A stretch of DNA of 64,000 bases, from positions 65,031,485 to 65,095,484 of the forward strand of contig NC_054701.1 in NCBI RefSeq assembly GCF_016097555.1, read 5' to 3'. Below the pieces are notes generated by a model. That model searched no databases. It had not been told where the DNA came from and saw only the letters and a list, made by a program, of their open reading frames with translations. The translations under genes were made by a program, and so were the position numbers. Of the stretch, positions 55,801 to 61,800 are shown in pieces. This DNA comes from Gigantopelta aegis. Its lineage: Eukaryota; Mollusca; Gastropoda; Neomphalida; Peltospiridae. The first letter of the stretch is position 1; each line of letters opens with the position of its first letter.

Positions 55801-58800
55801 TTGTGGTGCACTGGTTGGAATGAGAGAAAAACCAATCAGTTCAATGGATTCACCGAGGTGGTTTGATCCTGTGACGCCAGCACCTCAGGTGAGCATTGAA
55901 CCGATTGAGCCAAATCCTACCCTTAAAGAGTACAAGCCTGAGGTGTGACTGGTCTCAAGATCATTCCTCATCAGTGGACCCAGTGGGTTTGTTCCTTTCC
56001 TAATCAGTACCACATGATTGATATATCAAAGGCAGTGGTATGTGCTGTCCGGTCAGTGGGGAATTATATTCTTTGTCACTGTGTGTGAACAAAGTGTTAC
56101 AACAACTATATGTTAGACTCCAAATAGTTGTAGTTACAAATGTGCTATAACTGGAAATTAACATTTGATGTTGACGCAGAAAATCGCAAATGCTACTGAA
56201 AATCATTATGTTAACGTAGAAAATGCATCTTCACCTCATTAGATGATGTGTTTTAATTTGGTTTTCATATATAACTAATTAATTATTGTCAAATGTCTTT
56301 TCATTTTCTTCAGAATGATCGATTTGAACAAACATTCAGCCAAGACATGGGAGCCTTCAATTTCAATGGCAGACCACCAGAGCCTGATGAAAGGTATGTT
56401 GATGCATGGTTATACTTGATACAGATTTTAAAGGGGGTCACAGTAGTTTAAGATTTTTGGTTCTATTTTATTCCTATGGTTTTCTCTTGACCAGTTCATC
56501 CATTTACAAATACTACACTATGTACTTCCCTGCATGTTTCCTCTGAAAACTATACGTGAGAATTTCCAGTGTTTGACATTCAGTAGCCAATGATTATTTA
56601 ATCAGTGTGCTCTAGTGGTGGTTGTAAACAAGGCAAAACTGTAACATCTCCTCCATCTTGTCCTCAAAATCTGTCATTAGTAAGTCTGGCCTGTCCCAAG
56701 GCAATAACTGTCCGTAGATAATTGCAGATTCTTACAAGAAGTGATCACCAAACAATTATGGTAGCTGAATTAAACTCGGAGGGAACTACAGGTTTCATCA
56801 CTGTCCATCTGTCCCATCTGTACCACATATAATTTTCCGGATGTTATTTCCACAATGCCTTCAGATATTTATCATGTCCTGTTACAGATCAAGTTTCACT
56901 TTCATGGAGGTTTACCCATTTTTGACAGAGTTATGGCCCTTGAACTTCGAAAATTAGAAAATTTGTTTTCCAGGTGGGGTTTTTCACAATACCTTGAGAT
57001 ATTGAGCTGATATTTTGTTCGGTGTGGTGGGGGACATGTATTGCTTTAGCAGCACTCTAAGAATGCTTGTTATTCTTGAACTATCCATATTTTAATATAA
57101 TATTATTATTGTACTTTGTAGCCAAATACTACAGTATGTGCTCCTGTGAAGACTGTGAGAATTACCAAATGCATGGACCGAACCCCCCCCCCTGAAATCG
57201 CTTTTTTTATAATTTAATATATCTGACATTGATATCTGACATTATTATATTTACTCAACATAGAAATATATGCCCAATATCTCTGCAATCTATTTTGGAA
57301 CCCCCCTTTTCAAAATCCTATGTATTGGAACCCCCCTTTTCAAAATACTATGTACGCCCATGAAATGTTTGACATAAATAGCCAATGATTATTTAATTAA
57401 TGTGCTCTAGTAGTGTCGATAAACAAAGCAAAACCGTAACTTCTCCATCTTCTGTCCTCGTCCCCTGACATTATTAAATCTGGTCTGTCCAAAGGCTTAG
57501 TAGATAATTGAAAATTCTTACTACAAGAAGTGATCACCAAACAGTTAAAAGTAGCTGAACTAAACTCAAAACCAGGGCTTCTTGAATTTTTATAAAATCC
57601 ACTAGCCATGGGATCAGTGATTTTAAACATTTACTAGCCACAATTAAAAATTCACTAGCCCTACATTACTTTAAGTTAATACAATTTTATTAAATAATAG
57701 AAATAATTGGATATGTCACCTAAAGAGGGAGATAAAGCTTAAAAACACTAACATTGGGGGGTTGGAGTGATGGCAGGATATTCATATTTACGTAACTGCA
57801 ACATTTGACCCCCCAAAAATGTACTAGCCATTGGGCATGGCAATTGTAGTTATTAACTAGCCCAACGTAGAATATCACTAGCCATGGGAATGGGGATACC
57901 ATAATCTAGAAGCCTTGCAAAGCACAGCTACTGGGGAATAGCATATTCTGTATGTTATTATCGAAGTAACCCTGACATGTCCAATTTTTTTTTTTCAGAG
58001 ACTTGATAATTGAAAGATTACAAAGGGAGATTCTGCAGCTCAAAGAGGAACTTCAGAGAGTGAAAACAGAGGTACAGGCAGTTACATTAATACATTATTA
58101 TGACTGGGTAGTCAGAGGTACAGACAGTTACATTAATGCATTATTACGACTGGGTAGTCAGAGATACAGGCAGTTACAATAATACATTATTACCACTGGG
58201 CAGTCAGAGATACAGGCAGTTACATTAATACATTACGACTGGGTAGTCAGAGGTACAGACAGTTACATTAATACATTATTACGACTGGGTAGTCAGAGGT
58301 ACAGGCAGTTACAATAATACATTATTACCACTGGGCAGTCAGAGATACAGGCAGTTACATTAATACATTACGACTGGGTAGTCAGAGGTACAGACAGTTA
58401 CATTAATACATTATTACGACTGGGTAGTCAGATGTACAGACAGTTACATTAATACATTGTTACGACTGGGTAGTCAGAGGTAAAGACAGTTAATTAATAC
58501 ATTATTACGACTAGGTAGTCAGAGGTACAACTGGGTAGTCAGAGGTACAGACAGTTAATTAATACATTATTATGACTGGGTAGTCAGAGGTACAGACAGT
58601 TACATTAATACATTATTACCACTGGGCAGTCAGAGATACAGGCAGTTACATTAATACATTACGACTGGGTAGTCCGAGGTACAGACAGTTACATTAATAC
58701 ATTATTACGACTGGGTAGTCAGATGTACAGACAGTTACATTAATACATTGTTACGACTGGGTAGTCAGAGGTAAAGACAGTTAATTAATACATTATTACG

Positions 58801-61800
58801 ACTAGGTAGTCAGAGGTACAACTGGGTAGTCAGAGGTACAGACAGTTAATTAATACATTATTATGACTGGGTAGTCAGAGGTACAGACAGTTACATTAAT
58901 ACATTATTACCACTGGGTAGTCAGAGGTACAGACAGTTAATTAATACATTATTACGACTGGGTAGTCAGAGGTACAGACAGTTACATTAATACATTATTA
59001 CGACTGGGTAGTCAGAGGTACAGGCAGTTACATTAATACATTATTACCACTGGGCAATCAGAGGTACAGACAGTTACATTAATACATTATTACGACTGGG
59101 TAGTCAGAGGTACAGACAGTTAATTAATACATTATTACGACTGGATAGTCAGAGGTACAGGCAGTTATATTATTACGACAGGGTAGTCAGAGCTACAGAC
59201 AGTTAATTAATACATTATTACGACTAGGTAGTCAGAGGTACAGACATTATTATGACTGGGTAGTCAGAGGTACAGACAGTTACATTAATACATTATTACG
59301 ACTGGGTAGTCAGAGGTACAGACAGTTACATTAATACATTATTATGACTGGGTAGTCAGAGGTACAGGCAGTTACATTAATACATTATTACGACTGGGTA
59401 GTCAGAGGTACAGGCAGTTACATTAATACATTATTACGACAGGGTAGTCAGAGCTACAGACAGTTAATTAATACATTATTACGACTGGGTAGTCAGAGGT
59501 ACAGACAGTTACATTAATACATTATTACGACTGGGTAGTCAGAGGTACAGGCAGTTACATTAATACATTATTACCACTGGGCAGTCAGAGATACAGGCAG
59601 TTACATTAATACATTACGACTGGGTAGTCAGAGGTACAGACTGTTACATTAATATATTATTACGACTGGGTAGTCAGATGTACAGACAGTTACATTAATA
59701 CATTGTTACGACTGGGTAGTCAGAGGTACAGACAGTTACATTAATATATTATTACGACTGGGTAGTCAGATGTACAGACAGTTACATTAATACATTGTTA
59801 CGACAGGGTAGTCAGAGCTACAGACAGTTAATTAATACATTATTACGACTAGGTAGTCAGAGGTACAGACATTATTATGACTGGGTAGTCAGAGGTACAG
59901 ACAGTTACATTAATACATTATTACGACTGGGTAGTCAGAGGTACAGACAGTTACATTAATACATTATTATGACTGGGTAGTCAGAGGTACAGGCAGTTAC
60001 ATTAATACATTATTACGACTGGGTAGTCAGAGGTACAGGCAGTTACATTAATACATTATTACGACAGGGTAGTCAGAGCTACAGACAGTTAATTAATACA
60101 TTATTACGACTGGGTAGTCAGAGGTACAGACAGTTACATTAATACATTATTACGACTGGGTAGTCAGAGGTACAGGCAGTTACATTAATACATTATTACC
60201 ATTGGGCAGTCAGAGATACAGGCAGTTACATTAATACATTACGACTGGGTAGTCAGAGGTACAGACAGTTACATTAATATATTATTACGACTGGGTAGTC
60301 AGATGTACAGACAGTTACATTAATACATTGTTACGACTGGGTAGTCAGAGGTACAGACAGTTACATTAATATATTATTACGACTGGGTAGTCAGATGTAC
60401 AGACAGTTACATTAATACATTGTTACGACTGGGTAGTCAGAGGTAAAGACAGTTAATTAATACATTATTACGACTAGGTAGTCAGAGGTACAACTGGGTA
60501 GTCAGAGGTACAGACAGTTAATTAATACATTATTACCATTGGGTAGTCAGAGGTACAGACAGTTAATTAATACATTATTATGACTGGATAGTCAGAGGTA
60601 CAGGCAGTTACATTATTACGACAGGGTAGTCAGAGCTACAGACAGTTAATTAATACATTATTACGACTGGGTAGTCAGAGGTACAGACAGTTACATTAAT
60701 ACATTATTACGACTGGGTAGTCAGAGGTACAGACAGTTACATTAATACATTATTACGACAGGGTAGTCAGAGGTACAGACAGTTACATTAATACAATATT
60801 ACGACTGGGTAGTCAGAGGTACAGACAGTTACATTAATACATTATTACGACAGGGTAGTCAGAGCTACAGACAGTTAATTAATACATTATTACTGCTGGT
60901 TAGTCAGAGGTACAGACAGTTACATTAATACATTATTACGACTGGGTAGTCAGAGGTACAGACAGTTACATTAATACATTATTATGACTGGGTAGTTTCA
61001 GATCTAAGAATGAAAAATCATTGATTATTAAAAAATAGGTTGTCTGATTCATTAAGAAACATTAAACTGCTAGGCAACAGACTCCAAACAAGCCTCACCA
61101 AAAATGATCCATCATTAGCATCATATATTTAAGGTGAAACAGAACAATATTCACCATTTTTTAACTGTCAATATTGAAACTTTTTCTGAGTTTTTTAATT
61201 CTGTTGTACAAACAAACATTAAAATGGAAGTATTTTTTGATAGATGTGTTTTTATAGAACAAAATATATTAACCAAATACATAATGTCGTAATTTGTCTT
61301 TGTTTTAGGACCACAGAATAATAGTATCCTTAAAAGATGAAATTAGCAAGTTGGAAAAGATTTTGTCTGAACTGAGACTATCAGCCGACCAGCATTTAAA
61401 GGTAACAATCATTTACATACGATATCTCAAACATTAAATATCAGGATTATACATTCAAATATGGCTGAAGCTTTGTCACCTTTAAATATCACGATTATAC
61501 AAATGTATCTTATGCTTTAGCTCTTTACTACAGTGTATTAGGAAATGTTTTATTTAACAACGCACTCAACACATTTAATTTTACGGTTATATGGTGTCAG
61601 TCATATCAGTGTTCGAGATTTAAAAAATTGGGCAGTATCCCAGTTGGATACTAACATTTTAAAATCTGGTATCCCACCTGAGAATTTAGTATCCCACTTA
61701 AATGAAATTCATAAACTTGGACAACACTGTTACTTAACTTCACCAGTAAATGATGACTTTCATTGTTTCAGTGAAAAATAAAAATGCAGGATTAAAAAAC

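Follow-up and report, generated by a model that had tools for sequence, protein, structure and literature searches.

A minisatellite that starts inside a coding exon and repeats its splice donor in a HIP1-like gene of Gigantopelta aegis

How does the spliceosome settle on one donor when dozens of near-identical ones follow it in tandem? The question is raised by a locus of the gastropod mollusc Gigantopelta aegis, within a stretch of 64,000 nucleotides (contig NC_054701.1, positions 65,031,485 to 65,095,484 of the forward strand), which we call the window and in which positions are counted from its first letter. Here a minisatellite with a 46-bp unit, its first five bases still within a coding exon of a HIP1-like gene, repeats the donor of that exon, a natural experiment in donor choice. 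An earlier note on the window had drawn attention to the array; its observation is confirmed, and its interpretation is partly supported. We consider it probable that a minisatellite captured a donor here and has not been under selection, that the first donor is the one mainly used, and that use of the decoys is minor and unproductive. The array and its borders are as follows (a slash in donor motifs marks the exon–intron border).

57999-58071, plus strand: HIP1-like coding exon (exon 13 of the earlier note), 73 nt, 24 residues after one split base, ending in phase 0.
58067-60996, plus strand: minisatellite with a 46-nt unit; 67 boundaries and 34 different unit sequences.
58067-58112, plus strand: unit 1 of the array, in which CAGAG, the five bases that close the exon, is followed by the true donor (+1 at 58072) and the start of the intron.
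60997-61010, plus strand: right flank of the array, TTCAGATCTAAGAA, with CAGA in common with the left array boundary.

The minisatellite was located with Tandem Repeats Finder, which reports a period of 46 and 64 copies, in agreement with the 46-bp unit and roughly 60 copies described earlier; when the units are cut at the core motif, 67 boundaries result, namely the exon's true donor and 66 copies. The array starts 5 nt inside the exon, and the likeness between copies covers the exon bases CAGAG (58067-58071), so that the unit does begin with the last five exon bases as had been claimed. Unit lengths among the 67 are 46 nt in 40 cases, 45 nt in 15, 43 nt in five, 20 nt in three, and 38 and 32 nt in two each, and the first and last array units differ by one base. 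The commonest donor 9-mer, GAG/GTACAG, stands at 43 boundaries including the true one, which means that 42 of the 66 copies match the true donor exactly; GAT/GTACAG (six), GAG/GTAAAG (three) and GAG/GTACAA (three) also keep the GT, and GAG/ATACAG and GAG/CTACAG (six each) do not. The GT is thus kept in 54 copies and lost in 12 (six AT, six CT). At the 67 boundaries AG is kept at 61, GT at 55 and AG/GT at 49. The earlier statement that most copies carry the motif stands for the donor core but not for the longer string CAGAGGTACAG(A/G)CAGTTAC, which is exact in 31 of the 66, under half.

A search of the assembly (1.149 Gb, 5216 contigs) with the unit gave 31 matches, all within the array; none was found elsewhere, in a search that skips common words and whose repeat counts are lower bounds. 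The right flank was matched once. Other loci, or a second allele, were considered as well, and the searches with the unit and the right flank returned this locus only.

The gene that carries the array is, by its predicted domains, HIP1/HIP1R-like. Members of this family combine ANTH, a central coiled coil and I_LWEQ/THATCH in one gene, and matches to all three were found: an ANTH match over the cut-off lies upstream of the array (window 35002-35154), an I_LWEQ match over the cut-off lies about 17 kb past the window end on the same strand as ANTH (C3:65112841-65113074), and the coiled coil is encoded by three successive exons, 57999-58071, 61309-61401 and 63666-63744. The first 70 residues of this coiled coil align without gaps with human HIP1 (PDB 3i00, E 7.6e-08, phmmer) across both the array junction and the following one, and the coiled-coil matches, PDB 3i00 and 2qa7, are both HIP1. 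In a Pfam search with the 83-residue peptide, the best 25 of 38 matches were all below the curated cut-offs and belonged mostly to coiled-coil families. We infer that ANTH, coiled coil and I_LWEQ belong to a single transcript. KTE stands directly before the array junction in both this protein and human HIP1, and, because the alignment runs gap-free through the junction, the conserved protein is obtained when the exon ends at 58071. The exon is bounded by the acceptor TTTTTTTTTCAG and the donor GAG/GTACAG; exon borders other than those of the three coiled-coil exons were assigned by eye.

Two further observations concern this gene family. The same gene holds a second minisatellite (window 35165-35388, with a 22-nt GATGGATGG-type unit), which starts about 20 nt past the donor of the ANTH exon (AAT/GTAAGT, +1 at 35146, by eye), and that donor lies outside the array. 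A second, divergent HIP1-like gene lies on the 105-kb contig C696 (34% GC in the part read) and could be either a paralogue or contaminating DNA; its exon near L034:3643, in an alignment made by eye, runs through the position of the array intron, which seems to be absent there, so that this gene offers no array for comparison.

What would follow if a decoy were used depends on three further elements.

58118-58119, plus strand: GT of the first decoy donor (+46), with the true 9-mer; its use would give an exon of 119 nt and a shifted frame.
58180-58182, plus strand: TAA in the frame of the exon, within unit 3.
61309-61401, plus strand: coding exon that follows, 93 nt long, in phase 0 on both sides.

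The frame read on from the exon is open through units one and two and closes at the TAA at 58180 in unit three, in line with the earlier reading of an open unit one and a stop in unit three. As that note had also expected, decoy use would truncate the protein or shift its frame: for 53 of the 54 GT decoys the extension holds a stop, and for the remaining one, at +46, the shifted frame closes at a stop 29 nt inside the next exon. No decoy gives an in-frame product. Skipping of the next exon, on the other hand, would keep the frame, since it is 93 nt long with phase 0 at both ends. Its acceptor, TTTGTTTTAG/GACCA, lies 312 nt past the array and is not a copy of the unit. Selection against nearby decoys was considered and rejected. 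With a limit of 350 nt on the extended exon, the GT is lost in three of six near copies vs nine of 60 farther ones (Fisher p 0.068), but the p value depends on the limit chosen (0.33, 0.22 and 0.20 at 200, 300 and 500 nt), and the copies are not independent.

Can the donors themselves explain which one is chosen? Scores come from an approximate donor matrix and U1 tail and rank sites only roughly. The 42 copies that share the true 9-mer have, by identity, the same score, which bears out the earlier description of near-identical candidate donors. The authentic donor's 0.20 on the rough matrix makes it 10th of the 11 donors of the gene, the one below it being the exon 15 donor, assigned by eye, and by predicted U1 pairing it is 7th of 11 (-6.3; the others from -4.4 to -12.6). 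In the window, 8.8% of the 4309 plus-strand GTs score at least as high on the rough matrix. Three copies score above it on that matrix, at 3.33.

58480-58485, plus strand: GAG/GTAAAG copy; the other two have +1 at 58771 and 60443.

Because the identical copies match the true donor in 9-mer score, the 9-mer cannot explain donor choice. They differ from it mainly by position and upstream sequence, and these might be the basis of the choice. Purines make up 72% of the 50 nt upstream of the true donor and, on average, 57% of the 46 nt upstream of the copies. RNA structure that hides the decoys was tried as an explanation and set aside, because the predicted accessibility of the 9-mer does not discriminate the true donor (0.083) from the copies: the median of the 54 decoys is 0.030, seven of them exceed the true donor, and the values for nine other donors of the gene span 0.0003 to 0.28.

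These features can be joined into the following scenario, in which we infer the mechanism of duplication, the choice of donor and the decay of decoy products. A local tandem duplication across the exon–intron border of the HIP1-like gene would have copied the donor together with the five exon bases before it and about 40 bases of the intron. CAGA, found at both flanks (the right one starts TTCAGATC), suggests duplication between short matching words. Slippage or unequal exchange would then have expanded the array to 2.9 kb, and whole blocks were probably duplicated within it, since stretches of 404 nt (offset 625) and 242 nt (offset 291) recur exactly inside the array. Splicing most likely still relies mainly on the first donor, that of the exon itself, because a purine-rich coding exon stands directly before it. 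Low-level use of nearby copies is also probable, as in the human gene ABCA7, and the resulting messages, frameshifted or truncated, would go to nonsense-mediated decay. Among the features seen there is no sign of selection on the array, and it has presumably not been under any.

Several points weigh against this scenario. The CAGA common to both flanks is only four bases long and is offset by two. The +46 decoy has the true 9-mer and would make an exon of quite ordinary length, and the three GAG/GTAAAG copies outscore the true donor on the rough matrix; for these two reasons decoys could be used to more than a minor extent. Predicted accessibility, with seven of 54 decoys above it, gives the true donor no clear advantage. 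Finally, the chance expectation of such an array end in this window alone is about 0.02 (9 arrays, assumed 12 donors).

This last figure reads differently against the genome as a whole. In a sample of 17 stretches of 10 kb, taken at round coordinates on contigs C1-C6 (6988 N in 170000 bases), 29 arrays with a period of at least 15, at least 2.5 copies and a length of at least 150 nt were found in 170 kb; they cover 9% of the bases, and 14 of them have at least 10 copies. The genome looks very rich in minisatellites. At this density, hundreds of arrays are expected to end at donors by chance: about 190-375 within at most 5 bases of a donor on its intron side, if 100,000-200,000 donors are assumed. 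Arrays of donor-like sites are generic, too, because sites that score at least as well as this donor, at a rate of at least 0.5 per unit, occur on 27 of the 74 strands of 37 other arrays (the 29 sampled and 8 in the window, both strands scored), and AGGT is present in 20% of shuffled array units of the same composition; donor-like sites of the AG/GT type occur on 6 of the 74 strands. What is special here is the anchoring of the array at the exon, and that is expected somewhere in so minisatellite-rich a genome. Such arrays should therefore recur at many donors of this genome, a prediction that can be counted.

Set against the reading of an unselected array, dosage control by unproductive splicing is unlikely. 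Under it, the amount or form of the HIP1-like protein would be set by the decoys, or by a skipping of the next exon that depends on array length, and array length would then be a heritable dial. The stops or frameshift that follow every GT decoy would suit it, and so would the in-frame skipping possible for the next exon, which resembles that of ABCA7 exon 19. The assembly, however, holds a single copy of the locus with no second allele found, the loss of GT from 12 of 66 copies gives no sign of preservation, and in ABCA7, according to the excerpts of the source cited here, one-unit retention was constant with the length of the variable number tandem repeat (VNTR) while exon 19 skipping varied (PMC5954066).

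Scarless re-splicing, or recursive splicing, is a rather improbable alternative. Because the exon's final AG was copied along with the donor, a decoy extension would itself be a GT–AG interval of about 46n nt, and its removal would restore the normal message. The AG, GT and AGGT counts at the boundaries given above would allow this, with 1584 boundary pairs in the array that bound GT–AG intervals of at least 60 nt, and in Drosophila regenerated sites are re-spliced upon loss of the exon junction complex, although that complex, by the same excerpts, normally blocks such re-splicing (PMC8184009). Moreover, pyrimidines at positions -20 to -5 of the unit AGs average 50% (maximum 62.5%) vs 56-88% at 11 acceptors of the gene, ranges that overlap somewhat, and AGGT, as the shuffled units indicate, is not rare. 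The bolder proposal, that the array is a self-correcting splice border at which wrong donors are often chosen and the error is then removed scarlessly by re-splicing, we regard as a long shot; if true, a gene that is needed could tolerate the growth of a minisatellite, which would be buffered against its own decoys.

An assembly error, with a real array given in the wrong length or internal order, is very unlikely: identical internal stretches of up to 404 nt are difficult for short reads, yet the 34 distinct unit sequences stand in a non-uniform order, and the right-flank border is clean with a single-copy flank. The suggestion, raised in the earlier note, of a U1-binding array, which would guard the transcript against premature end formation or gather splicing factors, is highly improbable. 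In its favour are the 54 GT copies, whose commonest forms have predicted pairing of -5.8 and -6.3, near that of the true donor; against it, donor-like sites as good occur on 27 of the 74 strands of other arrays, which makes the property generic, and the main copies do not pair with U1 at +4 to +6 in the usual register.

Other features of the window may be recorded briefly. An array of 54 copies of a 29-nt unit (ATAGCTCAGTGGTAGAGACAGAGATGTAC) occupies 24779-26328; the unit may resemble a tRNA A box, and we take it, tentatively, as possible tandem polymerase III promoter-like words. ARAGORN reports a tRNA-Arg (TCT) gene at 9005-9077 and a tRNA-like match of no assigned type at 34292-34364 on the minus strand. 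An open frame of 294 residues with a helix-turn-helix-like start lies at 35802-36686 and presumably resembles a mobile-element transposase.

How, then, does the array compare with known systems, as far as the excerpts cited here describe them? Repeats can create introns: tandem duplication of AGGT-containing segments is described for the Rogers model, for ATP2A1 and for genes of fission yeast in which a 24-bp AGGT segment occurs several times (PMC4974935). The present array likewise holds tandem AGGT copies, so that the GT of one and the AG of another can bound an intron; it differs in that the duplicated segment lies mostly within the intron, whose acceptor is no copy of the repeat. The GT and AG ends of this intron are thus not copies of one segment. 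A ratchet point of recursive splicing requires a polypyrimidine tract before its AG. In such points an acceptor AG and a donor GT are juxtaposed (PMC8605326), as they are at 49 of the 67 boundaries here, but with few pyrimidines before the AG and in dozens of copies about 46 nt apart, and we lean against taking the boundaries for ratchet points.

Closer likenesses come from two human genes. The minisatellite of IFI6 (G1P3, 6-16), reportedly described by Turri in 1995, has a unit of 12 bp. Two of its downstream repeat units act as donors, which gives three mRNA species (PMC4526556); these products code for isoforms, whereas every product of a GT decoy here would be truncated or frameshifted. 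In ABCA7, an intron 18 VNTR with a 25-bp unit and alleles of 298-10678 bp adjoins exon 18 and contains its donor. When the donor of the next unit is used, one unit is retained, to an extent that does not vary with VNTR length, and the frame shifts, and in-frame skipping of exon 19 increases with that length; the frameshift isoforms reach 14 +/- 6 and 2 +/- 1%, an order that we read as cryptic acceptor and one-unit retention (PMC5954066). ABCA7 and the present locus both have a tandem repeat beside a coding exon with its donor, a unit length that is not a multiple of 3, a next-unit donor that shifts the frame and a downstream exon whose skipping keeps it. ABCA7 is backed by RNA, allele-length and disease data, the array described here by its sequence, and the 25-bp units and C-rich region of ABCA7 contrast with 46-bp, A+T-rich units in another gene of another animal. 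Moreover, the first two bases of the ABCA7 array are the donor GT, whereas here the start lies five bases earlier, within the exon, and AG/GT is repeated for that reason. The array stands beside a coding exon with the donor in its unit, and most units keep a GT donor like the true one (54 of 66, 42 of them with the identical 9-mer). Judged by these structural features, it is a new example of the arrangement already described in human ABCA7 and IFI6, a non-human case in which the AG of the exon has been captured as well.

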